A stretch of DNA of 64,000 bases. Origin: Pseudomonadota bacterium (lineage in GTDB: Bacteria; Pseudomonadota; Gammaproteobacteria; Burkholderiales; Thiobacillaceae). The first letter of the stretch is position 1. Every line of letters starts with the position of its first letter. Below are positions 416 through 19,262 of the stretch, piece after piece. Under the pieces are notes generated by a model. The model had not been told where the DNA came from. It ran no database searches and was given only the letters and a program-made list of their open reading frames with translations. Location: assembly GCA_030653935.1 (NCBI GenBank), contig JAURYL010000006.1:1-64000 (forward strand). Direction: 5' to 3'. A program made the position numbers and the translations under genes.

Positions 416-2530
416 TCAGTGAAGCATGAGCAACAGTGCCCCTCTCTTAGCCCTGGTCATGGCGACGTAAAGCAGCTTTCGTTGGGTTTCTGTGTCCTCC
501 GGCTTCCCCAGGTAACTCTTCGGGGCAACGACTGCCACGCAGTCAAATTCAAGCCCCTTGGCGCGGTGCATGGTCGCCATGTGCACCACATCGCGGGCGT
601 CCGCGTGGTTGCTCTGGGGGGTGATGGCGACGCAACGCAGGCCGGCGACCTGCAACCGGTTCGCCAGCGCATCCCGGTTTTTCTCGCTGGACGCAACGAC
701 GCAGATGGACAGGGGCGTGCCCTCACCCTCCGTGGCCTTCCACTGCTGGATAAACTGGGCAGCCTTCTCCGCGGCGACTTCCAGTCCGTCCACATTCATC
801 AACTCGGGTTTGGGGCCATGGGACACCGACTTGTACCGCTTGGTCTCGTCGTGGCCATCGTCCAGGTCGTCAATCTCGCACCCCTCTAACAACGCCACTG
901 CCTGTCGCCGGATTTCATCGGTGGTCCGGTAATTGAGATAGAGCTTCCGGGAACGACCTCGGATGTCGATGCCGCACTTGCTCATGGCCGCCTTGTGTCG
1001 ACTGTAGATGCGCTGATGGCCATCGCCGACGAAGAATAGGTCGTTGCTCCCCGGCGCAATCATGGCCCTGAGCAAGCGCAACGCCTGCGGCCCGAAGTCC
1101 TGCGTCTCATCGACCACAATTGCGCTGTAGAGGTCGAGTCGTTCTTTTTCCGTATTCAGCAGGTCCGCCATCTCACGGTAGGCGTCGTCAACTTCCTTCA
1201 ATCTGCGTGAGGCCAACTGCCCCCGATATTCCTCAAACACAGGCCATACGGCGTCGCGCTTCGCCCGGCTCAGAATGACACCTCGGCCAATGCGTCGAGC
1301 CGTCCGATATTGGTCCAGGGTCGTGATGCCCTGAGCAAGGATGACCTGCTCCAGTTCCTGCTCGTAGAAGTTGTCAGGAAAGTCCAGGGTATCGTTTTTT
1401 ACGGCCAGGGCGGCCTGCCAAGCCTGCAAGGGGGCGTCCTGCTTGCGGTCGTAGACAATGCGATGTTCGAGCTTGTGGCTGCGCATGTAACCATTCACCC
1501 AGGCATCTAGGTTCTTTATCTCGAGCTTGGTCAGGGTATCGGCTCCGCAGAGGGTGCGCATGTTTTGGTCGATGTCGAGGGCCAGGTTCTTGGTGAACGT
1601 GCTGAAAAGCACCTTCTTGCCTGGCAGGGTGCGGTTTTCCGCCAACCACTTGGCGCGATGCATGGCCAGCACCGTCTTGCCGGTGCCAGCACCTCCCAGG
1701 ACCCGCACAGGACCGCTGCGGTCTCCCATCGCGAGCTTGTGCTGCGTGGGGTGCAGGAACACCCGCCACTGGGCCAAGGGAGCGTTCATGATGGCAATCA
1801 TGGTTTCGTCGTCATTGACGACCACGAAGCGGGACTGGGATTCCGGTGTCGTGAGCGCGGCAGCAAAGTCCTCTGTATCAATGACACGGTCCACCCGCGT
1901 CTCGCGTGCAACCAGGACCTGGTCAACCGTATCGCCCGCGGCTACCAGGAAGAGACCTTCGTAGGCCTCCAGGGGCAGCTGCGCCTGAATCGCATCCAGT
2001 TGTTCTTCCGTTTCTATCCGACGCACTTCGGGCAACAGTTCCTCGGGTACGCCGAGGCTCATCAACTCATGGTCGGACACCTGGGTGAACAGCGGATTCG
2101 CGGGGGCCGACGCAGCCACTTCCACAGGAGCGGCAGGCGACAGAGTGGAATCGTTTGCCGCGGGTATTGGCACCTGTTCCACCACGCTCTCAAGCATCAC
2201 CATCTGCATGGCGCCGGTGACCGGGTTGATAGTCAGCTTGCGGTTTTCTGCCCAGCGGTACGCCTCGTCGTGGTGGTTCACGTAGAGGAGGACATACACA
2301 TCACCCGTGCTTGGCTTGAATATGATGCCCCGCCAATCCTTGTCCATGCGGACGGATTTCAGGTTCGGGTCCCGTGCCCCGTTGATGTTCTCGTAGTTGA
2401 TGCCCGAACTCGTGGGGTCGGCCTGGAATTGGATGGCCCACTTCATGACCTTCGAATGGATATTCACCGGCAATTTTGCGAGTTGCAGCAGGAAGTCTTG
2501 CGACAGGGCAACCTTGGGACTCAAGCTCAC
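416..2530 (-). CDS. UvrD/Rep-type helicase with RelE-like N-terminal domain
   Basis: Superfamily 1A helicase of 704 aa. Walker A GGAGTGKT is at about residues 279-286, Walker B VVDETQDF at 472-479, GDGHQRIY at 502-509, the LNYRTT motif at 532-537, and motifs V/VI at 653-663 and 686-696. The first roughly 100 residues look like a RelE/ParE-type fold (a tryptophan/arginine-rich WRGIIF strand, then YVLLYVNHHDEAYRWA). A linker of about 150 residues joins the two parts. The start is GTG, with GGAG seven bases upstream; the preceding helicase gene ends 4 bases earlier, so the two are probably translationally coupled. It is the last gene of the island operon. The helicase call is firm. The RelE-like call is by eye, and a defence role is inferred from the neighbours. 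Confidence 0.85.
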   Translation of the reverse strand: MSLSPKVALSQDFLLQLAKLPVNIHSKVMKWAIQFQADPTSSGINYENINGARDPNLKSVRMDKDWRGIIFKPSTGDVYVLLYVNHHDEAYRWAENRKLTINPVTGAMQMVMLESVVEQVPIPAANDSTLSPAAPVEVAASAPANPLFTQVSDHELMSLGVPEELLPEVRRIETEEQLDAIQAQLPLEAYEGLFLVAAGDTVDQVLVARETRVDRVIDTEDFAAALTTPESQSRFVVVNDDETMIAIMNAPLAQWRVFLHPTQHKLAMGDRSGPVRVLGGAGTGKTVLAMHRAKWLAENRTLPGKKVLFSTFTKNLALDIDQNMRTLCGADTLTKLEIKNLDAWVNGYMRSHKLEHRIVYDRKQDAPLQAWQAALAVKNDTLDFPDNFYEQELEQVILAQGITTLDQYRTARRIGRGVILSRAKRDAVWPVFEEYRGQLASRRLKEVDDAYREMADLLNTEKERLDLYSAIVVDETQDFGPQALRLLRAMIAPGSNDLFFVGDGHQRIYSRHKAAMSKCGIDIRGRSRKLYLNYRTTDEIRRQAVALLEGCEIDDLDDGHDETKRYKSVSHGPKPELMNVDGLEVAAEKAAQFIQQWKATEGEGTPLSICVVASSEKNRDALANRLQVAGLRCVAITPQSNHADARDVVHMATMHRAKGLEFDCVAVVAPKSYLGKPEDTETQRKLLYVAMTRAKRGALLLMLH

Positions 2531-2534: not shown

Positions 2535-5500
2535 TTACTCCTGATAGTTCAGTTCAAGCCCCAGCAACGGGGCAATGGCCATCTGCCAAGGCGTTCCGGA
2601 TACCGTCGAGGCATCGTCGAGTAGCACGACCTGCCAGCCGGCCTCGGCCCACGGGGCTCCCATGTCTTCCTGGTCAGCACGGAGTAGCACCACAGTAGCC
2701 TCTTGCCAGGCCATTTCCGCATCGGCCAGCACACGACCTTTCTCGTCAGCCAGTTCCATACCGACTTCGGGTAGTGGGGCGCCGGCCTGAGCAAGGAGGG
2801 TCAGACCGGCCTTCAAATCGCCAAGAACCTGTTCCAGAACAGCTGCCCAGGCCGCATTCAATGCAGCTTGGCCAGGCGATTGGGGGGGCACGCCCGAAAC
2901 GCCTACATGCAGGTCATCGTAATCATGCCCGTCGAGGCCACTGGTTGTTGCCAGCCACATGCCAGGCAGGAATTGCGCCGCGTTGAACAGTTGCAGCCAA
3001 CGCCGCCATGCCAGGTGCAAGTCTTCTTCCTTCTCGGCGCCAGCTTCATCCAGCAGTACCACGCCAGGAGATGACCAGTCGCCGTCAGGAATGTGCCCCT
3101 TGGCCAGCGCCATTGGCCATCGGCCGATGTAATGGCATGGCCCGGTAATCTTTGAGAAGCTGGGTGCAAAGCCCTGCCCCGGTTCGCGGATGGATTCGGG
3201 TAGCCGGGGCAACCAGTGGCTCAGCTGCTGGGCGCAGGTAGCCCTGTCTTCCTCAGTGGAGGGAATCATCAGGAACCCCAGCCAGAGCGCATTGCGCTGG
3301 AACGTATCCAGTGCCGCATCCTTACCCTGGGCGTCGTAACCCATGGCTAGCCACTGCAAGAGTCGGGCAACCGCATGTTGGGTAAAGGCCTTTTCCTGGG
3401 CTCTGGGCACGGTGGGCGGCGCTCTGCTCCCGTCATGACGCGACATGGCGGCCAGAGGGGACTCCAGGTCGGTGTCCAGGCCGCCCTCCAGGGCCGCCTT
3501 CACGTCCTGGTGGGTGACCGACCAGACCCAGAACCCGCCGGAGGCCAGGATGGCGTTGCGTTTCCGGGCATCGTCACGCAGTCCATCCTTGTGATACGCC
3601 CAGCCGTCGCAGAACACTGCGATGGGCTTGCGCTTGGCGCCGCTCGACCACGGCCAAATCACGAAATCCGGTTTGCAATGAACCGCCACCCCCTGGTCGG
3701 GGCCAAGCTCGCACTGGAGTTCAATCCGATAACGCTGGCTGTCTACCTGGAGGACGTAGCCCGTCTTGCCATGTACCAAGTCCTGCACCAGGGTCACCAG
3801 CGGCAGGCCACCCACGCCACCGAGCCGGTTCAGGCTCTCGACGAAGCGCGCCTCCAGCACCGAGTCGAAGTTCGGATTGATATAGATTTCCGAAATGGTC
3901 TTGACCCGCTCCAGTTGGTCCAGTGAACCCACCAAGTCACTGAGCACGGCCTTCGCCATGTCGCGGGAGACCATCTCCATGCTTCGTCCAAGGCGGTACT
4001 GGTAGAGGCAGCGATAGCAGCCGTCTTTCTCCGGGTCCTGGTTACAGGAACAGGTGTTGAGCGCATCCAGGGCCATGCGCAGCACATCGGCCAGGGTGCC
4101 GGCGTCGTGGGCCAGGAGCTGGTGTAGATAACCCGTTCCGCCCGGCACAGAGTCATACAGCATGACGAAGAACTTGCGAGGTCCGCCTTCCTTTCCGGGT
4201 TCGTCCTGCAACACCATGCGCAGGTGGTCGACCTTGCCGCCGAAGCGGCGTTTGAGGCCCAGTTGCACCGCGGCCATGAAGGACTGCACCACCCGCTCGT
4301 CCACGCCGTTCTTGGTGTACGGCACCAGTATTCGCAGGACCTCGGACTCGAATTCCCGATACAGATAGAGGCATTCCAGCAGGTTGGACGGGTCCGAGCT
4401 GCCGTGCCGGGGGCAGTCGAAACTGTGGCTTTGCTCGTTCGCCTCGGCATTGCGCCGGGGCGGCTTCTGCACCTTGCCGCAGTACCGGCACAGCTTGAAC
4501 CCCGGCCGGGTGGATTCCTTGTCCGCCACCTTGAAGGCTTCCCCCGGCTTGGCCAGTTCACCGAAATTCACATCCCGGAAGGTGACCCGGGAGATGAACT
4601 CGAAGCCGAAGGGCAGCGACCCGGACGGAATCTGCCAGGCCTCGCGGATGTTTGAGGGCAGGAAGTCGGCCATCAACTGGCGCACGTAATACTTGGGTTC
4701 CCGGTCCTCCGCACTGTCGTCGATGCGGACATCGGTATCGTTGCTGTTGGCGATGGCCTGCTTGAAACGCAGCAGGGTGCGCCTTTGCGCTGCGTCTGCC
4801 CACATGGCATCGCCGCAGCGGGGGCAGGTCATATGGACGTCCGGCTCCATGGCCAGGTTCTGCATGTGGTGGCAGCCTGGACAGAAGCGCCACTCCTCGG
4901 CCTTGGCCAGATTCATGTTTATCTGGTCCACCTCCACCCGCCGCTGGTTAGCATAAAAGCGGTTTTCCGGGGCGAACTCGGACAGCGCGGACTGGGCCGG
5001 ACGCTCGTACTTCTGGGTTTTGAGGGTGACGTAGGCCCCCTCACCGGGCTCGTCTGTCCCCCGCTTGCGCCAAAGTACGGATTTCAACTCCACTCCGGAC
5101 TCGGGGAAGGCGTAATTGGGAATGAGGCCGGCGTCGGTCAGGGTATTCAGCAAGTCACGGCCGTTGATTTCCTTGATGAGCTCCAGCAACTTGTCCCGCT
5201 CGCGCAGCAGGTTGTTGATGAGGTCGCGCGTGCTGTCGTCCTGCGGCCCTTGCTGTGCCTTTGCCTTGGCCTTGTCCAGTTCCTCCTTGCGCTTCTTGTA
5301 CGCCTTCCGTTCCTCCAGCAGTTCCTCCAGGGCCTTCATCAGCCGGGTACGCAGCCCATCGACCTCGCCCTGCCCCTGTATGAAATCCAGGAGGCGACCA
5401 CGCACCACATCGTCCACGTCCCCGGCCAGCAAGGCCATGAAACTCTCGAACAGCCGTTCCTCGTTGGCCAGCACGTAGTCGCTAAAGAGATAGGGGAAGC

Positions 5501-8500
5501 GGTCCAGCTTCGCCTGGGCCATGGCATCCAGGGCCTGGGAGGTCTTCTCCGGCAAGGCGTTGGTGTTTTTGAGACTGGCCACCCAGTCGTCCATGCAGGA
5601 GGCGAACAACTGGCGCCGCAACACTTCCGCCGCCTGCAGGAAGACGCCGGGAGGTGTTACCTCCCCGGCAATCATCTCCTCGGTCTCAGCAAAGAAATAC
5701 AGGTCATGAGGACTGTTGCCATCCGCCAGGGTGGTGGTCATGGCATTGCCATCTTTGCGTCCGGCGCGGCCGATGCGCTGCAGGAAGCTGGCCTGGTTGG
5801 GCGGCACCGAACAGAGCAGGACGGAGGACAGGTCGCCGATGTCCACACCCATTTCCAGGGTGGGGGTGGCCGAGAGCAGGTTCTCGTACCAGGGCCGGGG
5901 ATGCTTGGACTTGAAACGGGTCTCCAGCGCCTCCCGTACCGGGCGCTCCAACAGGCCGGTGTGCTCCGCCGCAATGACTCGGCGCAAGTCACCCTTGCTG
6001 TAGCGTTGCGCCCACCAATCGGCAGCGAGCGGAATCAGGGTTTCGTAGGAGGATTCGACCGCATCCAGACAGGGCATGCCCAGCAAATGCTCGGCATCCT
6101 GCCGCGGCACCGCGAGTTTGCGCTTGCCCCCCGGCGTGGCCACGAAGGCTACATCTGTGGTGAGCTGCAAGGCCCCGGAACGGATGCCCAGGGTGTCGCC
6201 CTGGTGATGCTGGGTGCGCTGCAGGATGCCCGCCTCCAGCAAGGCGTCGACAGCGGCCATATTCAAGTCCGCCGCCATGCCGGGGGAAAGTAAGGCCTGT
6301 CGCGACAGGGTGGCAACGGCCCAGCGGTCGTACCAGGTGGAACGGCTATTGCTGGTCAACCTGTCGAAGCCCTGCTGAGTGCCCAGGGTCAGGAACACTG
6401 GACGCGGGGTGGACTCCCCCATCTTGGGCATCCATTCGCCACGCCCCGCACTGCGGGTGAGTCCGAAGATGTTGCCGTCGCCGGCATACAACTCCAGTTC
6501 CGCGTGCATCACGCCACCGCGCCGGCGCATGTGGTTCAACATGCCCCAGAGCCACTGGGACAGGGTGGCTTGTTCCAGGCTACGCAGGCCGAATTGCTCT
6601 TGCAGCTTGGGCAGCAAGCGGCCGGCCACCGCATCGATGCTCTCCCAGGGCACGGCCACTACTGCCTTGCCTATCCGCTCCAGGGTTCGGCCCCGGTGGC
6701 TGAGGTAGGTGAACTCGCTGTAGGCCTGCCACAAGACGCGCTTCTTCACCTTGCCCGGCAGCCGGCTCTGGCTGGGCAGGTGCTGGTGCTCCAGCAGTTC
6801 CACGCTCCAGTCGTGCTGCCAGGCCATGTTCGGGGCCAGGAACTCGGACACCAGGGTCTCCGGGTCCATGTGCAGGACCGAGGCCGGGTTGTCGAACTGG
6901 ACGGCCAGCCTGTCGAGGAAGTCGGACCAGGCCATGCTGCGCTGGCCGAACTCGTCCAGCGCATGGGCCAGGGCCGTGCGGATGTTGTTCTGGTAAGTCC
7001 GGGCGCCGAAGAAGCCGGCCCGATGGGCGGCGTCCTGCACCGAATCCGAGAAGGCGATGAGCTTCTTGTCGTCGTTGTACGGGCTGGCCCAACTACTCTC
7101 CACCACCTGAGAGCCCAGCGTGGCATTCCGAGCACCCAGCAAGAGCAGCTCGTCCCGCTCGCCACAGGCCGGGCAGGTGTTGTCGTGCCGGGTGTACTGG
7201 GTCTTGCCGACAACATGGGTACGCTGGGCCGTGACCCGAAACATAGGCGCCAGCTCCTGGTGCCCGCAGGCCAGGCAGGTTTCCTCGCCCTGCTGCACAT
7301 TGCCGCAAGCCGTGCAGACGCGCTGGTGCACACCCTCCACCTGGGAGCGGCCGAAACTTGCCGCCGCATACAAACGGGTCGCCTCGGGCCGCCGCGAGAA
7401 CCAGGTGTTGTATATCTCATCGAGCTGGGTGGAGAGCTTGCTGCTGCCCTGGACCATGCGGGAAAGCCAACCCGTGGTCCGGCATTGGCGGCACTGCACC
7501 ATGGGCAGATAGACGCCGTCCCGGTCGCTGGGCAAATCCCGGGCGCTGCGCAGTTTCACCTCAAGGGGGTCCGCGCTCAGCTTGCCCACCATGCGCCGCA
7601 GTTCGCGCACCCACAACTGCACCCGCAGGGTCACCAGGGGTTGCCGACCTTCACGCAGGGCCCAGGCCACCAGGACCAGCAAGGCATCCAGCACCATGCC
7701 CACCTGGGCTGGTGTTGCCGCAGGCAAGTTGCGGGCGAAGGCTTCCATGAGAACGGGGTAACTCACCGCCCCGCCCTTCACCAGCTTGAGCAGGTTGACG
7801 AACAACTGATGGCGCTTGAGCAGGTTCCCCAGCGCCATGCGCCAGGCGGGGTCGGCCACCTCCGCCGGCATCGGCTCCTCCGGGAACAGCAACCCGAACC
7901 AGGCCCGGATGGCGGCTTCCGGGGAGGCGTAGCGGGACGGCGCCAGCTGCTCGGCCATTTCCGGGCGGAACAGGAACATGAAGTCCACGGTAGCGTCTTC
8001 CAGGAAGGCGCCGACCCCCTGGCGGTTTTCCGTGACGACCGACTCCGGCGGGAACGGCACGCCAAACACCTGGCGAGCGTATTCGCGCAACGGCACGGTG
8101 TCCGAACCGCCCCCCAGGGTTGCCGAGGTACCGGCACAAATCAGGTGTTCAGTGGGGATTTTGAGGCGGGCGCGCAGGCGCCGCAGGAGCAAGGCCAGGT
8201 CCGTACCCTGGGCGCCATCGAAGGTGTGGAGTTCGTCCACCACCAGATAGCGCAAGGTGGTCGGTGTGTTCTGCTCCCACAACTGGCGGTCCTTGGGCCG
8301 CAGCATCAGGAAGTCCAGCATCTTGTAGTTGGTCAGCAAGATGTCGGGCGGATGCTTGCGCAGGGTATCCCGGTCGGTGATGACGCTGTCCGGGGTCATC
8401 ACGGCCCCTTCACCCGTGTTGTCCACCTGACCGCCGACGTACAGGCCGACGCGCAGGCCGGTGAAGGCCGGCACCGTAGCCACCAGTTTGGCAATCCGTC

Positions 8501-8942
8501 GTGCCTGGTCCGAGGCCAGGGCGTTCATGGGGTAAATCACCAAAGCCTTGATGCCATGCTCGCCGGCGGCGCGGGCCCTGGCACAGTGGTCCAGCACAGG
8601 GAACAGGAAACACTCGGTCTTGCCGCTGCCGGTACCGGTCGCCACCAGGGTATGTGCGGCCTGGTGCTGGCTAAGGTGTTGGGTGGATAGGCGCAGCCAG
8701 GACGCTTCCTGGTGGCTAAAGCCCGGGTGCTCGGTTTCGAAGGTGGAGAAAAAATGCTTTCCCGCACGGCCCGACACGAAGGGCAAGCCCACCTGTACGT
8801 AGGGTCCCTTGAGCCAACCCGATTCGTCCTCGACGAACCGACTCATCAAGCCATGCAGGAATGGGTCGGCCGGTTCGAAACCCGCCACCAGGAATTGCTT
8901 CAGGCCGGTCTGGATGTCTTTGGCGAGCAGGGAGGGCAGCAT
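2535..8942 (-). CDS. Giant DEAD/DEAH helicase with DUF1998 and nuclease-like C-terminus (DruE-like)
   Basis: Superfamily 2 helicase of 2135 aa, the size of the DruE helicases of Druantia anti-phage systems. Walker A ATGTGSGKTE is at residues 101-110, DELH at 236-239, SATLG at 273-277. Motifs V/VI (MGVDIGD, QRIGRAGR) are at about 1031-1062, so the two helicase lobes are split by a long insert carrying CxxC zinc pairs between about 484 and 593. More CxxC pairs follow, then a charged coiled-coil-like stretch near 1217. A DUF1998-type cysteine cluster (CSCN...CYRCLYQYR) is near 1630. After it, about residues 1755-1820, PDFVIW...IAVFCDGWAYH...RKRNAIL looks like a Vsr/DUF559-type PD-(D/E)XK nuclease fold. 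Expected role is ATP-driven DNA translocation in defence. No DruA-D, DruH, DruM, DruF or DruG partner is recognisable, so the gene symbol is withheld. Confidence 0.8.
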   Translation of the reverse strand: MLPSLLAKDIQTGLKQFLVAGFEPADPFLHGLMSRFVEDESGWLKGPYVQVGLPFVSGRAGKHFFSTFETEHPGFSHQEASWLRLSTQHLSQHQAAHTLVATGTGSGKTECFLFPVLDHCARARAAGEHGIKALVIYPMNALASDQARRIAKLVATVPAFTGLRVGLYVGGQVDNTGEGAVMTPDSVITDRDTLRKHPPDILLTNYKMLDFLMLRPKDRQLWEQNTPTTLRYLVVDELHTFDGAQGTDLALLLRRLRARLKIPTEHLICAGTSATLGGGSDTVPLREYARQVFGVPFPPESVVTENRQGVGAFLEDATVDFMFLFRPEMAEQLAPSRYASPEAAIRAWFGLLFPEEPMPAEVADPAWRMALGNLLKRHQLFVNLLKLVKGGAVSYPVLMEAFARNLPAATPAQVGMVLDALLVLVAWALREGRQPLVTLRVQLWVRELRRMVGKLSADPLEVKLRSARDLPSDRDGVYLPMVQCRQCRTTGWLSRMVQGSSKLSTQLDEIYNTWFSRRPEATRLYAAASFGRSQVEGVHQRVCTACGNVQQGEETCLACGHQELAPMFRVTAQRTHVVGKTQYTRHDNTCPACGERDELLLLGARNATLGSQVVESSWASPYNDDKKLIAFSDSVQDAAHRAGFFGARTYQNNIRTALAHALDEFGQRSMAWSDFLDRLAVQFDNPASVLHMDPETLVSEFLAPNMAWQHDWSVELLEHQHLPSQSRLPGKVKKRVLWQAYSEFTYLSHRGRTLERIGKAVVAVPWESIDAVAGRLLPKLQEQFGLRSLEQATLSQWLWGMLNHMRRRGGVMHAELELYAGDGNIFGLTRSAGRGEWMPKMGESTPRPVFLTLGTQQGFDRLTSNSRSTWYDRWAVATLSRQALLSPGMAADLNMAAVDALLEAGILQRTQHHQGDTLGIRSGALQLTTDVAFVATPGGKRKLAVPRQDAEHLLGMPCLDAVESSYETLIPLAADWWAQRYSKGDLRRVIAAEHTGLLERPVREALETRFKSKHPRPWYENLLSATPTLEMGVDIGDLSSVLLCSVPPNQASFLQRIGRAGRKDGNAMTTTLADGNSPHDLYFFAETEEMIAGEVTPPGVFLQAAEVLRRQLFASCMDDWVASLKNTNALPEKTSQALDAMAQAKLDRFPYLFSDYVLANEERLFESFMALLAGDVDDVVRGRLLDFIQGQGEVDGLRTRLMKALEELLEERKAYKKRKEELDKAKAKAQQGPQDDSTRDLINNLLRERDKLLELIKEINGRDLLNTLTDAGLIPNYAFPESGVELKSVLWRKRGTDEPGEGAYVTLKTQKYERPAQSALSEFAPENRFYANQRRVEVDQINMNLAKAEEWRFCPGCHHMQNLAMEPDVHMTCPRCGDAMWADAAQRRTLLRFKQAIANSNDTDVRIDDSAEDREPKYYVRQLMADFLPSNIREAWQIPSGSLPFGFEFISRVTFRDVNFGELAKPGEAFKVADKESTRPGFKLCRYCGKVQKPPRRNAEANEQSHSFDCPRHGSSDPSNLLECLYLYREFESEVLRILVPYTKNGVDERVVQSFMAAVQLGLKRRFGGKVDHLRMVLQDEPGKEGGPRKFFVMLYDSVPGGTGYLHQLLAHDAGTLADVLRMALDALNTCSCNQDPEKDGCYRCLYQYRLGRSMEMVSRDMAKAVLSDLVGSLDQLERVKTISEIYINPNFDSVLEARFVESLNRLGGVGGLPLVTLVQDLVHGKTGYVLQVDSQRYRIELQCELGPDQGVAVHCKPDFVIWPWSSGAKRKPIAVFCDGWAYHKDGLRDDARKRNAILASGGFWVWSVTHQDVKAALEGGLDTDLESPLAAMSRHDGSRAPPTVPRAQEKAFTQHAVARLLQWLAMGYDAQGKDAALDTFQRNALWLGFLMIPSTEEDRATCAQQLSHWLPRLPESIREPGQGFAPSFSKITGPCHYIGRWPMALAKGHIPDGDWSSPGVVLLDEAGAEKEEDLHLAWRRWLQLFNAAQFLPGMWLATTSGLDGHDYDDLHVGVSGVPPQSPGQAALNAAWAAVLEQVLGDLKAGLTLLAQAGAPLPEVGMELADEKGRVLADAEMAWQEATVVLLRADQEDMGAPWAEAGWQVVLLDDASTVSGTPWQMAIAPLLGLELNYQE

Positions 8943-8979
8943 GGCGGTTCCGGTTTATGGTTTCCTGGTCACGGCGGCG

Positions 8980-10307: not shown

Positions 10308-10321
10308 GAAGATAGAGTGCG

Positions 10322-10468: not shown

Positions 10469-10517
10469 GTCTTGGTAGAACACGCGGGTATAAGTAGGGC
10501 CGCGTAACCGTTTTGGT

Positions 10518-10639
10518 CCGTCATTCCCGCGAAGGCGGGAATCCAGTTCGTTCGTCAAACCTGGGGCTGAACAGCAATCAGATGTACGAGCTGGATTCCG
10601 GGTCCGTCATTCCCGTGAAAACGGGAACCGGAATGACGG
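10518..10639. repeat. Two REP-like palindromic repeats
   Basis: Two copies of the gtcattcccgcgaaggcggg type of palindrome, the second with a variant centre (cccgtgaaaacggg). Similar units occur at 22834-22904 and 49841-49870. They lie between the 183-aa unknown gene and the gene fragment. Confidence 0.75.
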
Positions 10640-10664
10640 TTCCAAAACGGTTTCGCGTGATCAC

Positions 10665-11216
10665 TTATACGTTTCCAGTATTAGAGATACGGTGCTTTTC
10701 GTAGGCCTGCGAGAGCAAAGTTAAGGCATGGTTCAGGCTGGTCGCGGTCGGTTCGCTGAATCCTGTTGGCATATGTACAGTGCTACCGGACAACTCGCAG
10801 CGTTCCAGACCTTTTAACTTCAGCCACAACCCGCCACGCTCAGGCAGAAGTTCCGGCTGACCTGATTTAGCTTTGCATGGACCCAGCGTGATGCATTCCC
10901 AGCGTGTGGTGCCCGGTGGCACATTTAGCGGAAAAGGATGGGGCCACTTTCCCACGCGGTTTCCACCATGGCTGCGGTCGCTCAGTGCCACCAACAATGG
11001 AGCTCCTTCGTCGAGTATCTTGACCGCTAGTTCCTGGGTCACACGCTGGCGGAAACGCTCATCGGTAATTTGGTCGGCACTGAGGGTCAGTTCTGCGAGC
11101 GTGCCCTCTTTCACGGGTACGTCACCACCGTAAAAGAATTCCCACCTATCTCCCACCCGTTTTACCGGCATGGTGACCTTGGTGCTCCAATCAGGGTCGA
11201 AGTAGTTCCCGCTCAT
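10665..11216 (-). CDS. Unknown protein of the defence-like island
   Basis: A 183-aa protein that I do not recognise. It starts MSGNYFDPDW; the middle part reads like a mostly beta-strand domain (WEFFYGGDVPVKEG, LWLKLKGLERCELSG). No transmembrane segment, signal peptide or known catalytic motif is visible. The start at 11216 has GGGAG about eight bases upstream; an alternative ATG at 11237 overlaps the methyltransferase stop. The gene follows the methyltransferase stop by 13 bases, so the two are co-transcribed and it may be an accessory subunit. It is followed by repeat-rich, degraded DNA. Confidence 0.7.
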   Translation of the reverse strand: MSGNYFDPDWSTKVTMPVKRVGDRWEFFYGGDVPVKEGTLAELTLSADQITDERFRQRVTQELAVKILDEGAPLLVALSDRSHGGNRVGKWPHPFPLNVPPGTTRWECITLGPCKAKSGQPELLPERGGLWLKLKGLERCELSGSTVHMPTGFSEPTATSLNHALTLLSQAYEKHRISNTGNV

Positions 11217-11229
11217 GTAACCGCTCCCT

Positions 11230-14200
11230 TTATCCATCCACTTCGAAGAACGCCCAGGCCAACCGATAGTCCTCCTCCCGGTTGGCGCGGGCGAAGGGGG
11301 CGGTGTAGGTGCGTTCCACGGTGCGGGGTCCACCGGGGAGGGTGTCGTCCTGCACCCATTGGGTGATGACGGTGCCATCCGGGACTTTTGTGGTGCCGCC
11401 GATGCGGCGGGCCTGGTCGTCGGCGGTGTCGCCGGCGTAGGTCCACAGGTCTTCCCAGCCGAAGTTGCCTTCGCGGAGCGTGTGGCCACCCCGACCGTCG
11501 GGGGTCTGGATGCGGGTTTTCGGGGTGGTGCGGCTGCCCTTGCGCGGCAGGCCGACGCCGACCAGGCCCTTGCTGTTGGTGAAGACGATGCGGCCGTTGA
11601 GGTCGTACCAGGTGTCGCGCTCGTAGCCCTGCATCACCGGGAACTGGACGCGGTAGATGAGCAACAGTTCTTCCAGGGTGAGGCCGAGGGCCTGGGCCAC
11701 CAGCACGTCGATTTCCACCAGGGCCATGCGGCGGGCGTAGTCGCTGCGCAGGGCGCAGTGGCGGGTCCAGGTGCTTGTCAGGTTCTGCCAGAAATCCTGG
11801 GGCAGGCGGGGGTTGGCGGGTTGGCTCCAGGACTGGTCAGCGAAGGCGAGGTCGTAGACTTCTTCCCAGAGGGGAGCGTAGTGGGTGGTGAGGCAGTTGA
11901 GCGCAAGAACCCTGGCAGAAACACCTAGCAATGCAAGGTGGGGCAATCGTCCTAATGTTGAGTCATACATATCACCAAGGCCAGTAGACTTAACAAAAAA
12001 ATCAGCCAACAGAGATGAATTAAAACCGACGACATCAACGAGGCAATTTATATCCCGAAATGCTACTGATAACACTGGATTAATATGCGCAACTCCGCGG
12101 GGAGCAATTGCTGCGATGAGTGTTCGCTCCATGCTGGAACTGATACGCCTGCGATGCACGTAACAGAAATATTCCGTCACTGGCCTAGCTTCTGTCTCGC
12201 CATGCTCTATCCAATTTACTCGTGGCGTGCGACTCAGGTATTTCTCTCGACTCTCCATGGGAAGATAGTTCGTACGAGGCAAATAGTCTTCAGGCAATTT
12301 TTCAAGGTCAATATTGTCGTAAGCCTTATGGGAATCGCAAACCTGACGGGGCGTCTTATTAAACGGCGTAGCAACATAGAAATGTGGACCAGATAGGACC
12401 AATTCCACAGGGGAGCCAGGAAAGTCCGAAGTGTTTATAGCGCGACGGCTGATGGTGCCGTCACGCTGCTGATTAGTTTCGTCAAACATCATGGTGGCAA
12501 AGTATCGCTGACTGAAATCCACTAAACGTCGTGGATGTGCGGCTAACTTTGACATTACGCTGCCTAGCGTTCCAGCATGTAATGCTGGAATGCGGGCACG
12601 AAGCGGCGAAGTTCCTGATTCATCATAAAGTTGGGCAAACGTAGCCAACAATTGAGTATCAACATGCACAACTCTATCTAGATGGCCAGTTGTATTCCAT
12701 TGCCCACTCTCATTCTTAATGCCGTCGGTTAGACCTCTGCCGTCGTGTTGGTAGCATGCATCAACAGTGGAAGGTGTAAATAGATTTGCAATTTGGTCAA
12801 ACCTAATCTTAGAGCGCTCAGGACCATAAATATTGATGCTAAAAGTTTCTCTATTGCCAATGGGAAACAACTTGAATTCGTTTTGGAAACCCAATAACGT
12901 GCGTAAGCGGGGGTATACTCCCTCGCGCAAAATTCCGCCATTAGGGTCGTCGTATGGGCCCTCAGGATGCAATAGGCCGGTGAAGCCACGGGCATTATTC
13001 AAGCCCCAAGCCAATGGCATGAAACATTTATATAGATTTGTCTGAACTCCCTTCAGTAGAGGGTAGTTCTGCATTGCATTCAGGAAATTTTGTATACCCT
13101 CTGCTTCCTGAAGTTCATCTGTCCATCCTGTCTGTAGGCCCGGGTACTGAACAAATGCATCTGCACGGAGTTTAGTTAACTCAATTGCGCTGATTTTTCG
13201 GATGGCGAAGATTGGGTTACGTTCTCCCAGTATCCCGCTTTCATTCCATATAACCTTAAGCCAAGGGGGATTTCCTAATATCAGGTCGAAGCCCCCTTGC
13301 TGAAGCAGCACATCGGCGAAGACCAGTTCCCAGTGCATAAAGCGGCGGGCCTCGGCCACGGCTTCCACCTGGACGATGCGCGGGAAGTGCTGACGCAGCT
13401 TGCTGATGCGCAGTTGCCCCAGTTTGTCATGCAGGTTGGGTTGACCCGGGTCCTGGCTCAGGGGCAACTGGAGTTCCAGCCCCAACAGGCTGGGCTGCAC
13501 CTCGGGCACGAGTACCTGGGGTGCATCGGGCACCGTGGGTTGCAGGTCCAGGCTGGGTTGTGGCGCGATGTCGACAATGTTGCCTTCCAGGATGGCGCCC
13601 ACTTCCATCCACCATGCCTCGCGGCTAGGCAGGTGGGCGCTGGCGGTGATGGGCCAGAACCAGAGGGCGCACCAGTAATCCATCACCAGCTTCAGGCGGC
13701 GGAATGGCGTGGCCAGGTCACCATCCTCATTGAGCAGACCCTGGCGGCGGATGGCTTCCTTCTGGGCGCGGCTGATGTGGCGGCCGGACTCGCCGGCATC
13801 CCGGTTTGGCCAGACGTCCAGGTCGTCCTCGGTGCGGCCCCGGTCCCGGGCCAGGTCTCGGGTGTGTTGTTCCCACAACTCCTGCACCCGGGCACTGAGC
13901 TGCTGTAGACGGGCGATTTCATAATTGCTGAAGGGGGCGGTGAACGCCTTGCGCCAGGATTTCAGGCGGTCGAAGTCGGCCGGGTACAGGCTCTTGGCCA
14001 CCTTGTCGGTGTAGCTGGCCATGCCTGGGTCGGGCAGAAGGAAGTGCCAGATTTCGTCGCCAGCTCTGGGCTGGTCCTTGCTGACCTTGCGTGGCGGTTC
14101 CTCATGCCAGGCGGGCTTGGCGCCTTTCAACAGGCCGCCGGGCCGGTAGACCTGATGGCGGGCGCCGATAAGGCTGTTGCCAGCGAATAACTGGTAGCCA

Positions 14201-16314
14201 AACCAGGGCACCCGGGCGGGGAGCGGCTGCCCTTGGGCATCGGTTTCGCCATAAATGGCGTTGAGCCAGAGGGAGACTTCCGCCAGTTCCACCGCCACCG
14301 GGTTCAGGTCGACGCCGAAGGCGTTGCGGTCGGCCAGGTACATGCGCACCTTCTGCAGTTCCCGGGCGTAGTCCTCGTTGGGAATGCGGCGCTTGAGTTC
14401 GGCCTGCTTTCGTTCCAGGTAGGCCTCGGACAACTGGTTGACGGCCTCGTTCAGGAACGCGGCGCTGCCCATGGCCGGCTCGCATACGGTAAGGGTGAGG
14501 ATGTCGTCGGCCTTTTTCACCCGCTCGCTGTTCAGCAACTCCTTGAGGGCGTACTTGACCAGGCATTGGGTGAGCACCTGGGGGGTGTAGTAGCTGGCGC
14601 TCTTCTGCCGGTCACGCCCGGCCAGGCGGTAGATGAAGCGGCCCTTGGGATGACGGCGCAGCACCCGCTGGCCGGCTTCATTCACATCGAAGACGCGCTC
14701 GTCTTCCTTGTATTCCGTCAGGCGGCTGGCGGGGACGAACCAGGCGTTTTCCAGCAGGTCGGCTTCTGAATTTGAACCGTTACGCCGGGCGGGGGCGGCG
14801 GCTTCAGCTTCGCCGTCGTCATCTCCGTCGGCGTCGTCCTCGTCAGCCACCCGGCCCTTCTTGGGCGCGGGCTTCACTTCATAGAGGTCTTCCGCGGCGA
14901 AGAAGCCCCGGTAGGAAAGCAGGGCCTCGTACACGGCGCCCAACTGGTTGATGGACAGGAGCTGGTAGCTGACGCGGCCGCTGCGCTGGCCACGCTTGCC
15001 CCGGGTGAGAGACATGAGACGGATGATGCGTTGCCAGACCAGGTTGGGAAACCGCACCTTGTTCAGTAGCGGCATGGTGGCGTCGTCGAACAAGCGGCTG
15101 TCCAGGGGTGCCAGGGCAAAGGTGTCCTTCGCCCCCTGGGTGGCGTCACGGATGCTCTGCTGCCCGGTCATGCCGGCGCCCTGGGCCAGCAGTCGGAACA
15201 GCCGGCGCAGAGTGGTATCGAAGTAAACGCCATCCCGCGCATGGGGCGTGGTGAGGGGCTGCATTTCCAGGTCGCGCAGGCTCTCCAGGCTGTAGCCCTT
15301 GAGGTAGACCTCGCTCTTGCCGATGGGCACATAGCCCAGTTCGGGCCGCGCTTCGATGTAGAACATGAACAGCAGGCGGTAGACCATGCGCAGGCATTCC
15401 ATGCTCAGGTCGGCCGGGTCCAGCTTGTACTGCCCGGAATAGACGCTCTTCTTGCTGCCGCTGGCCTGTTCGTCGAGTTGGCGTGCCGCCTCGTTGCCGA
15501 GCAGTTCGATGGCTTCGCGCAGGGCGTATTTCAGGTCTTCACTGACGCCAAAGGCGTGCTTGTGGGCGTTTTCGTCCAGGCTTTCCAGCAGGCTGCTGCC
15601 TTCTGCCGGGGCCAGACAATCCTTGTGCAGCAGGGCAGCGCAGGCCTTCAGGGTGTCGCTGTCCTTGCGGTCCAGGATTTCGGCCCAGTCGAAGCGCAGC
15701 GCCCGGTTGTTGGGCCACTTGTAGCGGTCCAGCAGCAGCCACTGGTCCAGGCCCACCAGCAGGACATAGCGTGGCGGGTGGTCGGCGCCGAACACGGCAT
15801 CTGAGAGCAGGTCAGCCCAGGTCTCGCCATGCAGGGCCGGGGGAACGGTATCGCCGCCGAAATGCAGGCTGGCCAGCTTGTGGTCCAGCAGGTCTTCATT
15901 CTCCGCACCTGGTTGGTAGGCCGGGATGACCACCAGCCGGGGCAGCGTCAGCCAGAGCGGGATGGGCAGGCCAGCGGCAAGTTCGGTCGGGGTGGGCAGC
16001 GGCGCCGGGGCGGGGTAGCCCAGGGCTTGCAACAGGCCGGTCTGGATGCGGGTGAACACCTGCCAGCGCTCGGCATCGTCCTTGGCACGTTGAATCTGAC
16101 CGCGCTGGCTGAACCACTTCTGGGCCCAGCCTTGCAGGCGCTTGTTGGGGGAGCGATGGGCTTCCTCGTTGGGGTGGGCAGCCTCGGCCGCGTCCCAGCC
16201 TTCCAGGCGGGCCTTGATGTCGCCTTTGAAGACTTCGGACAGGTAATGGTGGCTGTAGAACTCGTTTTCGTTGGCAATGCCAGCGAAGGTCTGGACGGCT
16301 TCGAGGACGGGCAT
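11230..16314 (-). CDS. Large Eco57I-like N6-adenine DNA methyltransferase (DrmMI-like)
   Basis: A 1694-aa protein. The AdoMet-binding motif I (CEPAMGSAAFLNEA) is near residue 610 and the catalytic NPPW motif near 1015, the gamma-class order of N6-adenine methyltransferases fused to specificity domains (Eco57I/type IIG, PglX, DISARM DrmMI). A long N-terminal region of about 550 residues precedes the methylase core; I do not see a clear nuclease motif there. I start it at ATG 16314, two bases after the SNF2 helicase stop, since the family-like sequence begins MPVLEAVQTF. From about 13270 to 11900, just C-terminal to NPPW, the DNA is clearly poorer in GC than both flanks, fitting an exchanged target-recognition domain. 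It probably marks host DNA for the neighbouring helicases. Confidence 0.82.
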   Translation of the reverse strand: MPVLEAVQTFAGIANENEFYSHHYLSEVFKGDIKARLEGWDAAEAAHPNEEAHRSPNKRLQGWAQKWFSQRGQIQRAKDDAERWQVFTRIQTGLLQALGYPAPAPLPTPTELAAGLPIPLWLTLPRLVVIPAYQPGAENEDLLDHKLASLHFGGDTVPPALHGETWADLLSDAVFGADHPPRYVLLVGLDQWLLLDRYKWPNNRALRFDWAEILDRKDSDTLKACAALLHKDCLAPAEGSSLLESLDENAHKHAFGVSEDLKYALREAIELLGNEAARQLDEQASGSKKSVYSGQYKLDPADLSMECLRMVYRLLFMFYIEARPELGYVPIGKSEVYLKGYSLESLRDLEMQPLTTPHARDGVYFDTTLRRLFRLLAQGAGMTGQQSIRDATQGAKDTFALAPLDSRLFDDATMPLLNKVRFPNLVWQRIIRLMSLTRGKRGQRSGRVSYQLLSINQLGAVYEALLSYRGFFAAEDLYEVKPAPKKGRVADEDDADGDDDGEAEAAAPARRNGSNSEADLLENAWFVPASRLTEYKEDERVFDVNEAGQRVLRRHPKGRFIYRLAGRDRQKSASYYTPQVLTQCLVKYALKELLNSERVKKADDILTLTVCEPAMGSAAFLNEAVNQLSEAYLERKQAELKRRIPNEDYARELQKVRMYLADRNAFGVDLNPVAVELAEVSLWLNAIYGETDAQGQPLPARVPWFGYQLFAGNSLIGARHQVYRPGGLLKGAKPAWHEEPPRKVSKDQPRAGDEIWHFLLPDPGMASYTDKVAKSLYPADFDRLKSWRKAFTAPFSNYEIARLQQLSARVQELWEQHTRDLARDRGRTEDDLDVWPNRDAGESGRHISRAQKEAIRRQGLLNEDGDLATPFRRLKLVMDYWCALWFWPITASAHLPSREAWWMEVGAILEGNIVDIAPQPSLDLQPTVPDAPQVLVPEVQPSLLGLELQLPLSQDPGQPNLHDKLGQLRISKLRQHFPRIVQVEAVAEARRFMHWELVFADVLLQQGGFDLILGNPPWLKVIWNESGILGERNPIFAIRKISAIELTKLRADAFVQYPGLQTGWTDELQEAEGIQNFLNAMQNYPLLKGVQTNLYKCFMPLAWGLNNARGFTGLLHPEGPYDDPNGGILREGVYPRLRTLLGFQNEFKLFPIGNRETFSINIYGPERSKIRFDQIANLFTPSTVDACYQHDGRGLTDGIKNESGQWNTTGHLDRVVHVDTQLLATFAQLYDESGTSPLRARIPALHAGTLGSVMSKLAAHPRRLVDFSQRYFATMMFDETNQQRDGTISRRAINTSDFPGSPVELVLSGPHFYVATPFNKTPRQVCDSHKAYDNIDLEKLPEDYLPRTNYLPMESREKYLSRTPRVNWIEHGETEARPVTEYFCYVHRRRISSSMERTLIAAIAPRGVAHINPVLSVAFRDINCLVDVVGFNSSLLADFFVKSTGLGDMYDSTLGRLPHLALLGVSARVLALNCLTTHYAPLWEEVYDLAFADQSWSQPANPRLPQDFWQNLTSTWTRHCALRSDYARRMALVEIDVLVAQALGLTLEELLLIYRVQFPVMQGYERDTWYDLNGRIVFTNSKGLVGVGLPRKGSRTTPKTRIQTPDGRGGHTLREGNFGWEDLWTYAGDTADDQARRIGGTTKVPDGTVITQWVQDDTLPGGPRTVERTYTAPFARANREEDYRLAWAFFEVDG

Positions 16315-16316: not shown

Positions 16317-19262
16317 TCAGGCTCCGACTACGGCTTGGGGATGGCACACGCCGGCCAACACCTGTATCCAGGGCTGGGGCTCGGTGGTGAGGGTGTCGTG
16401 CACCCACTGGCGGTAGTCGTCAAAGACGCCGTTGATTTGCTTGCTGCGTTGCTCGAAGCGACCCCGCTTCACGGTTTCAAGTTGGCGTTCCAGGTCCAGG
16501 GTGAGTTGCTCAAGCTGGCGTTCCTGCAGGCGCTTCAGCTCTGCCAGGGTGCCTTCCAGGCGCTGGGCGAGGGCGGCGGAAAAACGCTCCTGCTTGTTCA
16601 GCATATGGGCGTGCATGGTCTGCACCGCCTTCGGCAGGGCCGCCTGCATGGTCTGGGTGATGGCATCCAGTTCCCCCGTGTGGCCCCGGTTCGGCAGCCC
16701 GCCCGCCTTGAGGCCGGCGCGGGTCACGAAGGTATCGAATGGCTCCAACCTGAACTCCGCCGGTTTCGCAGGGGTGTGGATGCGGCTGGCCACCTGCCAC
16801 TCGACCAGGAGGGGCTGGCCTTTGCGGTTGGGTACCAGGCTCATCAGGATGAACGCCTGCTCTCCCGGTTGCAGCTTCATGCTCTGCAGCAGCGGGGCAC
16901 GGTGCCGGCCGAAGTGGGTGAGCACCCGGTCGCCCAGCCAGTCCATGATGGGATGCTGGGGCCACAGGTAATGCAGCTGGGGCCAGGTGTCTTCCTCTGC
17001 CCTGGCCTGCCGCGCCGACTCGATGGCCTGTGCCATGCGCTGGGGGTCGGCGCACAGGGAGTAATGGTCGTTGGCGGCCTGCACTTCGCGTGGCAACTGG
17101 CGCAAGCGCTCCTGCAGGTCATAGGGGGCGGTCAAGGCGATGATTTGCTCGGCATCTTCCGCTGACCACTGGCACAGGGTCTGCCCGTGGTTGAGTTGGG
17201 TGAGGGCCGTCTTGGTGTAATGGATGTCGCTGTCGAACAGGGAGGCAGGTTCGTCGATATGGTTCAGGCTGCTGTCGGGCTTAGCGTCGGCGCCGCCGCC
17301 GAACAATTCCATCAGGAAGTCACCTTCGTTTTCGCCGTTCTCCAGACCCTTGGACTTTGCCGCCTTGTCCATGGCGGCTTCGACCTGCTCCGGCGTTTTG
17401 CCATTGGCCATGAAATCAGCGACTTTCTCGGCTTCCTTGTCCGGGTCGTAGACATTGAGGAAGGCCGAGGGGTCACCCAGGTTGACGTTGGCTTGCTCGT
17501 CCTTCTTCTCCAGGATTTCCAGGATGCGCAGGTCGCCCTTGATTTTCTCAGTCACGGCCTCGGTGAACAGATAGACGATGTGGGGCTGCTGCTTCTGCCC
17601 GTAGCGGTCGATCCGGCCATTGCGCTGCTGGAACACCATCAGGGACCAAGGCAGGTCGAAGTGCACCAGGCGGTGGCTGAAGTAGTGCAGGTTCAGGCCT
17701 TCGCTGGCTACGTCGGAACACAGCAGAACCCGCATGGGGTCATCGAGGCGGCCGAATCGTTCCACCAGTTCCTGCTGCTCGGTATCCGACATCTGACCGT
17801 AGAGCACCTCTATCTGGCGAGGCTTGAGCTTGAGGTCGCTGCAGAGCTGCTGGTACAGCCAGCGCAGGGTCTCGATGCGCTCGGAAAAGATGACCAGGCG
17901 GTCGGTGGCCTCATGCATCTGCCAGCCGAATTCAGGCGAACGCAGGTACTTCAACAGGCGCTGGTATTTGCTGAACTGGCCGGCAGCCGGGTCCTGCACC
18001 AAGGCCTTCAAGGACTCAGCCAGGACTTGCAGGCCGTTCACTTCATCCAGCTCGTCTGAGGTCGGGCTGGATTTGCCCGATAGGATTTCGATGCGCTTCT
18101 GGGTGGACTCCAGTGCTGCGGCGGGGCTGGAGAACAGCCCCTTCTGCAGGCCGATGCGCTGGAGTTCCTGCTGGCGTCCTGCCTTGTGCTGGCCTGCCTG
18201 AGTGAACGCGACGTCGAGCAGCGCACGGTAGGCCGCTTCTTCGAGTGGGCTGGCGGCCTGGCGCAAGCAGGTGGTCTTGCGCTCCTGGAAGTCGGCGGAC
18301 ACCTGGTCCTTGATGTCTTTCTTGAAGCGGCGAATCACCAGGCCTTTGCTGCGGAAATCATCCGGCGTATAGAAATCCGGGTCGGAAATCGCCGTGGGGT
18401 CCAGCAGGCTCATCAGGGAGGCAAAGCTGCGCGCCGAGCCGTCATGGGGCGTGGCCGAGAGCAGCATCAGGGTATCCGAGCGGGTCGCCAGCAACTTGGC
18501 CAGACGGGCGCGGCGGGACAAGCCGGATTCGCCCGCCCGGGCCGCCACGTTGTGGCACTCGTCGATGACGATGATGTCCCACCAGGCGTTTTCCAGGTAG
18601 TTGCGGTATTCCAGATTGCTCTTGAGTGTGTCGACGGAAATGATGCTGCGGTCAAAGTAGTTGAACGGGTTGTGGTTGGCGGGAATGCGGTTGCGCACCC
18701 GTGCCAGGCCGACCGAATCCAGCCGCACCAGCGGGATGGAGAAGCGACTCCACCACTCCTTCTGGAACTGGGTGAGCATGGCCTTCTGGGTCACGACCAG
18801 GATGCGCTTGCCCCGTCCACGTTGAATCAACTCGGTGGCCAGCACCCCGGCTTCCAGGGTCTTGCCCAGGCCCACCGAGTCGGCAATCAGGATGCGGGAG
18901 CGCGGTTGCCGCAGGGCCTGCAAGGCCGGGTCCAGCTGGTAAGGCACCAGGTTCATGACGCCGCGATGGCCGAGATGGATTTTCTCGTCGTTGGCAACGC
19001 CACGGCGGCGATGGCTTTCCAGGTACAGCACGGTGGCGTTGTAGGCCGGGGTGTCGTCCGGCACCAGTTCGGTCTTGGCCGGGTCGAGGATGTCGATGGC
19101 GTCCTCAAGGCTGGTCAGGAACAAGGCCGACTGGCCGCGAACCAGCTCGGAGATGCCATCGCAGGTGAGCAGCCAGCCGCCATCCACGGCAGGGTCGACA
19201 CGACGAATCAGCCACTCTTCATCACGAATAACGGCTCGTGCGCCGGGGGCGAAGGGGAGCAT
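16317..19262 (-). CDS. SNF2-family helicase (DrmD-like)
   Basis: A 981-aa superfamily 2 ATPase. The Walker A ADSVGLGKT is at about residues 127-135, the DECH box at 234-237, SATPHDG at 269-275, and QRNGRIDRYGQ (motif VI) near 550. The C-terminal 400 residues include glutamine/leucine-rich helices. SNF2 helicases of this layout sit directly upstream of an adenine methyltransferase in class 1 DISARM (drmD-drmMI), the arrangement seen here with a two-base gap. No strong Shine-Dalgarno is visible before ATG 19262. It is probably the first gene of the island operon. DrmA, DrmB and DrmC are not present as separate genes. Confidence 0.85.
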   Translation of the reverse strand: MLPFAPGARAVIRDEEWLIRRVDPAVDGGWLLTCDGISELVRGQSALFLTSLEDAIDILDPAKTELVPDDTPAYNATVLYLESHRRRGVANDEKIHLGHRGVMNLVPYQLDPALQALRQPRSRILIADSVGLGKTLEAGVLATELIQRGRGKRILVVTQKAMLTQFQKEWWSRFSIPLVRLDSVGLARVRNRIPANHNPFNYFDRSIISVDTLKSNLEYRNYLENAWWDIIVIDECHNVAARAGESGLSRRARLAKLLATRSDTLMLLSATPHDGSARSFASLMSLLDPTAISDPDFYTPDDFRSKGLVIRRFKKDIKDQVSADFQERKTTCLRQAASPLEEAAYRALLDVAFTQAGQHKAGRQQELQRIGLQKGLFSSPAAALESTQKRIEILSGKSSPTSDELDEVNGLQVLAESLKALVQDPAAGQFSKYQRLLKYLRSPEFGWQMHEATDRLVIFSERIETLRWLYQQLCSDLKLKPRQIEVLYGQMSDTEQQELVERFGRLDDPMRVLLCSDVASEGLNLHYFSHRLVHFDLPWSLMVFQQRNGRIDRYGQKQQPHIVYLFTEAVTEKIKGDLRILEILEKKDEQANVNLGDPSAFLNVYDPDKEAEKVADFMANGKTPEQVEAAMDKAAKSKGLENGENEGDFLMELFGGGADAKPDSSLNHIDEPASLFDSDIHYTKTALTQLNHGQTLCQWSAEDAEQIIALTAPYDLQERLRQLPREVQAANDHYSLCADPQRMAQAIESARQARAEEDTWPQLHYLWPQHPIMDWLGDRVLTHFGRHRAPLLQSMKLQPGEQAFILMSLVPNRKGQPLLVEWQVASRIHTPAKPAEFRLEPFDTFVTRAGLKAGGLPNRGHTGELDAITQTMQAALPKAVQTMHAHMLNKQERFSAALAQRLEGTLAELKRLQERQLEQLTLDLERQLETVKRGRFEQRSKQINGVFDDYRQWVHDTLTTEPQPWIQVLAGVCHPQAVVGA

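Follow-up and report, generated by a model that had tools for sequence, protein, structure and literature searches.

Introduction

Among the described anti-phage systems, ARMADA type II is closest to the locus reported here. Bell et al. introduced the name in a 2025 preprint (PMC12458937) and tested the system in E. coli; according to the main text, it comprises ArmA (SNF2), ArmB (a methylase), ArmC (a YprA/DUF1998 helicase) and ArmD (RelE-UvrD). The same text reports that mutating any of the four Arm proteins abolishes or reduces protection, that this protection is non-abortive and that the SAM-motif mutant G605A of ArmB lost only part of its activity. The literature search turned up one paper on ARMADA itself and two in which it is mentioned. 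In the relevant passage of a 2026 review, ARMADA is grouped with systems that restrict 'by unknown mechanisms'.

Results

The window carries an ARMADA type II operon

The window, which is the whole stretch of DNA that was analysed (64,000 nucleotides; C72:1-64000), belongs to an assembly of 3.8 Mb in 135 contigs. ORF and Pfam analysis confirmed the one-strand defence operon proposed in the first-pass annotation, consisting of four large open ORFs, all on the minus strand, in the order armA-armB-armC-armD:

16317-19262, minus strand: armA, SNF2/RapA (BrxHII-like) helicase, 981 aa (Pfam SNF2-rel, Helicase_C)
11230-16314, minus strand: armB, PglX/type IIG-like adenine methyltransferase, 1694 aa (Eco57I 40 bits)
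2535-8942, minus strand: armC, YprA-like DEAD helicase with MZB/DUF1998, 2135 aa (DEAD 75.9 bits, MZB 48 bits at a cut-off of 24.2, Helicase_C 35.6 bits)
416-2530, minus strand: armD, UvrD/GajB-like helicase with a fused RelE-like domain in front (about residues 1-112), 704 aa (UvrD 76 bits)

The start of armB was taken as the ATG two bases past the preceding stop codon. ArmB also matches N6_Mtase with 19.3 bits, just below the cut-off of 20.4, and lacks a Pfam nuclease domain. In the C-terminal region of ArmC, REase_MTES_1575 scores 17.2 bits, below its cut-off of 38.2, and this part of the protein is a possible Vsr/MTES-like nuclease region; a Vsr-type nuclease at the C-terminus belongs to the description of ArmC in ARMADA type II. 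The RelE part of ArmD has no Pfam match. An AF2 model of residues 1-250, built on an alignment of 29 sequences, reached a mean pLDDT of 86.0, and the best PDB match of the N-terminal model is RelE 2khe (E 8.7e-4, TM 0.77 by target length). In this model the first ~112 residues fold as RelE. The RelE-UvrD protein read from the letters alone was thereby borne out, UvrD by Pfam and RelE by predicted fold.

Best local alignments with the proteins of E. coli ATCC 8739, where armA-B-C-D are contiguous, gave identities of 48.6% for ArmA, 46.7% for ArmB, 37.4% for ArmC (over residues 1-1866) and 40.8% for ArmD. The residues that were mutated in E. coli are conserved in the aligned window proteins in eight of eight cases: K134 and D234 of ArmA (E. 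coli K136/D236), G616 and N1015 of ArmB (G605/N971), K108 and D236 of ArmC (K110/D234), and K285 and D474 of ArmD (K266/D454). As ARMADA II demands, a BrxHII/RapA-like SNF2 helicase stands in the first place, a PglX-like methyltransferase in the second, a YprA-like helicase with DUF1998 in the third and a GajB-like UvrD helicase with an N-terminal RelE domain in the last, and the A-B-C-D order on one strand is kept, with cargo between B and C. Judged by gene set, order, domains, homology and active residues, the operon is an ARMADA type II system and not the hybrid or undescribed system that had been suggested. Nor is the combination restricted to its own genome, a case for which the first-pass annotation had allowed; it was found in many genomes.

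ArmB contains an exchangeable segment

A dip in GC content and a drop in identity delimit one part of armB:

11815-13254, minus strand: exchangeable specificity-like (TRD-like) segment of ArmB, about residues 1021-1500

Per 60 codons, the GC content of the segment is 41-56%, against 59-71% in the flanking blocks. The ArmB proteins of the window and of the locus L012 share 93% identity in the core and 61% in the segment. In a set of 31 full-length genes, core identity in the five closest pairs is 99, 96, 94, 93 and 89%, with segment identity at 67, 55, 53, 61 and 60%, respectively, and the C-terminal part back at 87-97%. Some close pairs depart from this pattern and differ little in the segment, for example L075/L077 (core 78%, segment 72%). 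Segment GC is lower than core GC in 30/31 genes (L021 is the exception, and in L047 the difference is only 0.3 points), and in 24/31 the nearest neighbour by segment is not the nearest by core.

The same pattern was found by megablast in E. coli. The ArmB core of ATCC 8739 is present at an identity of at least 95% and a coverage of at least 80% in all 515 genomes matched (515/515), and its segment is covered to at least 80% in 12 of the 501 genomes with a match. The segment variant of the plasmid-borne locus L053 is covered to at least 80% in 239/501 E. coli genomes; at its best place, it reaches an identity of at least 99% in 34/501 and stays below 95% in the others.

In type I, IIG and PglX enzymes, the specificity domain typically stands out as a variable patch in a conserved methylase. 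By this analogy, the ArmB segment would set the methylation motif. The first-pass annotation had proposed self-marking by the methylase, which we regard as plausible, and the exchangeable segment supports, without proving, a self-marking based on methylation. The literature searched yielded no methylation data for any ARMADA, and the word 'methylation' occurs 0 times in the main text of PMC12458937; like the partial loss of activity in G605A, this counts against the reading.

The armB-armC junction is a cargo slot

A search of genome contigs with the ArmC of the window yielded 50 loci. In total, 64 loci were examined, comprising those of the contig scan together with loci from E. coli, plasmids, further genomes and one viral contig; all were collected via one ArmC, they are related and hence not independent, and many lie in draft assemblies. 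The G374 and G377 loci, being identical with L012 and L002, entered the count a single time. Junction gaps were run to the stop codon, and a slot was called filled above 300 nt.

Among the 47 loci with a measurable ArmB-ArmC junction, 34 have more than 300 nt there. At the ArmA-ArmB junction this is the case in 0/34 loci, among them the rearranged L035, whose value is not a gap, and at the ArmC-ArmD junction in 1/37 (L035). Treating the loci as unrelated, the contrast has a Fisher p of 8.7e-18. Where ArmA-ArmB and ArmB-ArmC were both measured (n=32, L035 excluded), expansion is confined to ArmB-ArmC in 20 loci and to ArmA-ArmB in 0; where ArmB-ArmC and ArmC-ArmD were both measured (n=27), 17 are expanded only at the former, 0 only at the latter and 1 at both. 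Among the loci from beyond the genome-contig scan, the window counted, 9/13 measured slots are filled. Two loci stand outside the junction count: L083 (score filter), which shows both ends and is filled with ~5.7 kb, and L037 (its ArmB match ends early), with a gap of ~207 nt. Since 13/47 ArmB-ArmC junctions are empty or shorter than 300 nt, the cargo is not needed.

On an ArmC tree of 47 rows, slot occupancy changes at least nine times; the tree was made by a quick method, contains several long branches and some fragment rows, and has no type I, Druantia or DISARM references. Sister loci often differ in cargo or occupancy (window/L012, L014/L023, L003/L008, L016/L017, L027/L041); shared cargo is the exception (SIR2 in L004/L019; PIN in L043/L047/L048). 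In E. coli, a junction query of 1.2 kb is covered to at least 80% in one place in 514 of the 518 matching genomes, a count in which pieces up to ~1.1 kb apart may be joined and short insertions may hide. Each of the 15 rows listed consists of one piece. By eye, no conserved att-like motif was seen at the slot borders, the window's own left border aside.

Two loci show peculiarities in the core genes. In L012 (10001-16476; G374, same genus), armC lies in two frames, split near residue 620. In L010 (16417-20990), tblastn matches to ArmD extend over 4.6 kb, against 2.1 kb expected, which points to a partial second copy of armD or to inserted DNA within the gene.

The slot of the window is layered

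The cargo of the window is layered and partly decayed. The first-pass annotation does not mention its Phd/YefM-ParE pair, its Xre/MbcA-like gene or its second armC 5' end. Going from armB, the order is the front of a ~240-aa gene, a hairpin, the back of this gene, an armC remnant, an Xre/MbcA-like gene, a Phd/YefM-ParE pair and armC:

8943-11229, minus strand: ArmB-ArmC cargo slot, 2287 nt (junction survey)
10665-11216, minus strand: N-terminal part of the ~240-aa slot protein (the '183-aa unknown'), aligned with longer relatives (alignment A1)
10488-10670, no strand assigned: REP/MITE-like inverted-repeat element in the ~240-aa gene, 183 nt, 29-nt inverted arms, DNA fold z -7.8
10322-10501, minus strand: C-terminal part of the interrupted ~240-aa gene (profile A1 match, E 3.5e-19)
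10262-10308, minus strand: scar left by a second, diverged armC 5' end, 47 nt, 77% (direct repeat D2 with 8897-8943)
9707-10144, minus strand: Xre/MbcA-like antitoxin, 145 aa (weak Pfam/NCBIfam matches below curated cut-offs)
9261-9578, minus strand: Phd/YefM antitoxin (Pfam 35.3 bits, cut-off 29.8; 96% to L002)
8980-9264, minus strand: ParE/RelE-superfamily toxin, 94 aa (Pfam ParE_toxin 48.1 bits; 95% to L002)

The 183-aa ORF of the first-pass annotation is present. As a unit of its own it did not hold, and it is rather the N-terminal part of a ~240-aa cargo family with longer relatives in L008, L014, L018, L027, L030 and L092 (alignment A1). On the sequence, the gene is cut by the REP-like hairpin, which has 66 matches in its own genome including itself, all others being partial. 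We also considered whether the ORF belongs to the conserved core of the system and rejected this, as it is a cargo gene, present in six ARMADA slots (window, L008, L014, L018, L027, L030) and once outside ARMADA, in L092 (G418), beside a ResIII helicase. There (L092 5666-12668), the relative lies downstream of the helicase and upstream of a Sir2-like ORF, named by eye, and the surroundings are possibly another defence operon. The family has no Pfam or NCBIfam match, a search of PDB and BFVD with its AF2 model (7 sequences, pLDDT 70.5) gave no hit at E <= 0.001, and the viral contigs and plasmids searched contain no confirmed relative. Within the order it was found in 2/399 genomes, the window's own and one with a weak match at a contig end.

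The Xre/MbcA-like protein is 78% identical to L012 8558-8986. In L012 the relative is followed by a RES gene, whereas the window has no RES at this place. The armC scar is a weak tblastn match (E 2.6e-4). Remnants of an armC 5' end lie inside the slots of four loci, namely the window, L006, L035 and L044, and in the last three the remnant is followed by small ORFs and then by the real armC. These second 5' ends suggest that the cargo was acquired serially.

Cargo in other loci

In 25/34 filled slots, one or more ORFs match a Pfam or PADLOC profile. SIR2 was found in L004 and L019, GmrSD in L014, L021 and L045, and PIN in L041, L043, L044, L047 and L048. L006 carries a near full-length match to MkoA (1722 bits), which we take to be Mokosh, and L016 an HEPN-SNF2 gene together with a sacsin protein that matches TmtA, presumably Tiamat. 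Further cargo consists of sacsin/NOV_C (L099), NOV_C (L011), RhuM (L017), RES (L012, domain 65.8 bits), HNH with HipA (L075), HicB (L040), HATPase (L034), DUF2442 (L036, in a slot of 305 nt), AAA (L054), ThiF/DUF6791 (L035, opposite strand), PIN/HTH (L039, opposite strand), a ParA-like match below cut-off (L080) and the Phd-ParE pair of the window. L099 is the one ArmC relative in viral contigs. In L014, a cargo SNF2 helicase at 4908-8069 covers nearly the whole DrmD profile (854 bits); its neighbours in the slot are GmrSD and the ~240-aa gene.

The slots of L008, L018, L027 and L030 contain nothing but the ~240-aa family and ORFs with no match, and 5/34 filled slots have no recognised gene (L032 and L079, with one ORF scanned in each, and L076-L078, which lay outside the scan). 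Slots with one end out of view were kept outside the count, for example L005 with DUF4062/AlbA and L009 with UvrD. Defence and toxin-antitoxin types account for many of the cargo genes that could be recognised; with the exception of L039 and L035, the cargo has the same orientation as the operon.

Genomic setting

A tRNA-Pro(cgg) gene lies at 20106-20182 of the window on the minus strand. The 3' part of this gene plus 5 nt past it recurs as an exact repeat of 73 nt on another contig, at G000:C82:11790-11862 on the minus strand (L105:11790-11862). The repeat is consistent with a far att site of an island that starts at the tRNA-Pro and holds ARMADA; a second tRNA-Pro gene at this place is also possible, because ARAGORN calls tRNA-Pro there too. 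Past the tRNA, at 20235-32057, the window contains ordinary genes (polyprenyl synthetase, MCP, FadL-like porin, a methyltransferase/FAD oxidoreductase that we assume to be MnmC-like, Hsp33 and an HD domain), and four of the ten scanned ORFs have no match. In the same-genus G374 (L074 and L090), no tRNA was found in ~7 kb upstream of armA, and a tRNA-Leu lies ~1.6 kb past armD, so that the genomic place of the same-genus ARMADA seems to be different.

Discussion

We consider it very likely that the locus is an ARMADA type II anti-phage system with two evolvable modules, probably situated in an island beside tRNA-Pro. ArmB would read a DNA motif via its exchangeable recognition segment and methylate the host DNA. 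The translocase ArmA would engage unmarked phage DNA, and ArmC, as a helicase and putative nuclease, would attack the unmarked DNA together with ArmD, in an order of events that we infer. The gap between armB and armC probably serves as a landing slot, which secondary defence and toxin-antitoxin genes would enter by recombination. Cargo may arrive together with an armC 5' end, and the armC 5' remnants suggest a homologous crossover in armC on the right and a non-homologous join on the left. Genes in the slot would be placed for transcription with the operon and could act as a backup. Taken as a whole, ARMADA II would be a self-marking platform with two swappable cartridges, where the ArmB segment resets self and the slot modules, as backup or guardian, arrive with the armC 5' end and fire when ARMADA is blocked. 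We put this forward tentatively, as a rather unlikely proposal in its complete form.

It is close to an even question whether the slot is merely a tolerated landing place and its cargo has no functional link to ARMADA. Insertions would then be harmless for lack of translational coupling between armB and armC. The very mixed cargo types, which often differ between sister loci, and the decay of cargo in the window fit this reading. Moreover, empty ArmB-ArmC gaps measure 10-66 nt (L003, L007, L010, L013, L015, L023, L025), against mostly -4 to 4 nt at ArmC-ArmD, and in E. coli, where the two genes are contiguous, armB and armC overlap by one base. However, gaps of 1-3 nt occur between ArmA and ArmB in 16/34 loci too, yet none of the 34 exceeds 300 nt, and a mere landing place does not sit easily with the many recognised cargo genes of defence or toxin-antitoxin type on the operon strand (L039 and L035 excepted).

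The slot genes may instead be guardians, set off once ARMADA is blocked or overwhelmed by a phage, like PrrC in type I R-M; we regard this as possible, with the balance against it. Their position within the operon and the presence of SIR2, PIN, RES, HipA, ParE and HEPN genes in the slots point in this direction, and precedents are described in the texts on PrrC in EcoprrI (PMC12707154) and on backup effectors within BREX operons (PMC12839542). On the other hand, toxin-antitoxin pairs are also selfish stabilisers. Defence islands are, as is generally known, rich in such genes anyway.

It is improbable that the locus has decayed and lost its function in this genome. The interrupted ~240-aa gene, the Xre antitoxin lacking the RES partner seen in L012 and the split armC of the same-genus L012 would agree with decay, but in the window each of the four core genes has an open reading frame, and the active residues tested are conserved.

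The PADLOC profiles explain how the idea of a hybrid arose. PADLOC-DB of 2023 was searched with the operon proteins only, and the best 25 matches per protein were considered. They belong to other systems, e.g. DrmD, DruE, DrmMI, type IIG and GajB. The resemblances as such were correct: ArmA matches DrmD (317 bits) and ArmB DrmMI (158 bits), as stated for the SNF2-methylase pair and DISARM, and the 2135-aa DUF1998 helicase ArmC matches DruE (339 bits). In the best 25 matches per protein, the profile search that the first-pass annotation recommended links the proteins only to profiles of other systems; the full set matches ARMADA by homology. The absence of further DISARM and Druantia partners also held in part. 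DrmB, DrmC, DruH, DruA-D and DruM/F/G do not appear among the best 25 matches per operon protein, whereas DrmA profiles cross-match ArmA (221 bits) and ArmC (59 bits). If the system is ARMADA, this is the reason why the partners are missing. A hybrid or undescribed DISARM/Druantia system is highly improbable despite the DrmD, DruE and DrmMI scores, since the ARMADA II set and order are present, the NCBIfam DISARM_DrmD score of ArmA (329.6 bits) is under the cut-off of 610, and MZB (DUF1998) and DEAD lie in one 2135-aa ORF, in contrast to the separate DrmB of DISARM; we discarded the hybrid on the match with the published gene set, homology and residues. ArmB was also considered as a stand-alone type IIG R-M enzyme, given 815.5 bits with the PADLOC type IIG profile, and this was rejected because it is a member of a conserved four-gene operon and has no Pfam nuclease domain.

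The ArmB segment varies among E. coli with near-identical cores, so that self-marking can be tested by comparing methylomes. The slot, in turn, is a place to look for new defence genes, such as the ~240-aa family. It is invisible in the E. coli systems studied, where armB directly adjoins armC.

Comparison with known systems

The ARMADA type II system described in the main text of PMC12458937 has the same four genes, order, main domains and eight mutated residues as the window. The window differs by a cargo slot of 2.3 kb between armB and armC, which the E. coli systems inspected do not have. The main-text parts of that preprint make no mention of the slot or of an exchange of the ArmB segment, and its supplements may list slot genes; compared with this text, both the armB-armC cargo slot and the exchangeable ArmB segment appear to be new.

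Class 1 DISARM has a DrmD-like helicase and a DrmMI-like methylase in common with the window operon, which in contrast has a fused DUF1998-helicase and ArmD, with no DrmB or DrmC among the listed matches. Druantia shares the giant YprA/DUF1998 helicase (DruE), to which the window adds a methylase and an SNF2 protein, with no other Dru protein among the listed matches. In type I R-M with embedded PrrC, as described in PMC12707154, a toxin-type gene likewise lies inside a modification/restriction locus, but the core enzymes differ from those of the window operon. BREX, as presented in PMC12839542, also has a PglX-like methylase and a helicase, and its GmrSD, HNH, PIN and HEPN effectors, within or next to the operon, are comparable to the slot cargo; PglZ and BrxL are not among the best 25 PADLOC matches per window operon protein. 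In-operon backups similar to the slot cargo are already known in BREX and type I R-M. Unlike in BREX, the cargo of ARMADA is concentrated at one of three junctions.
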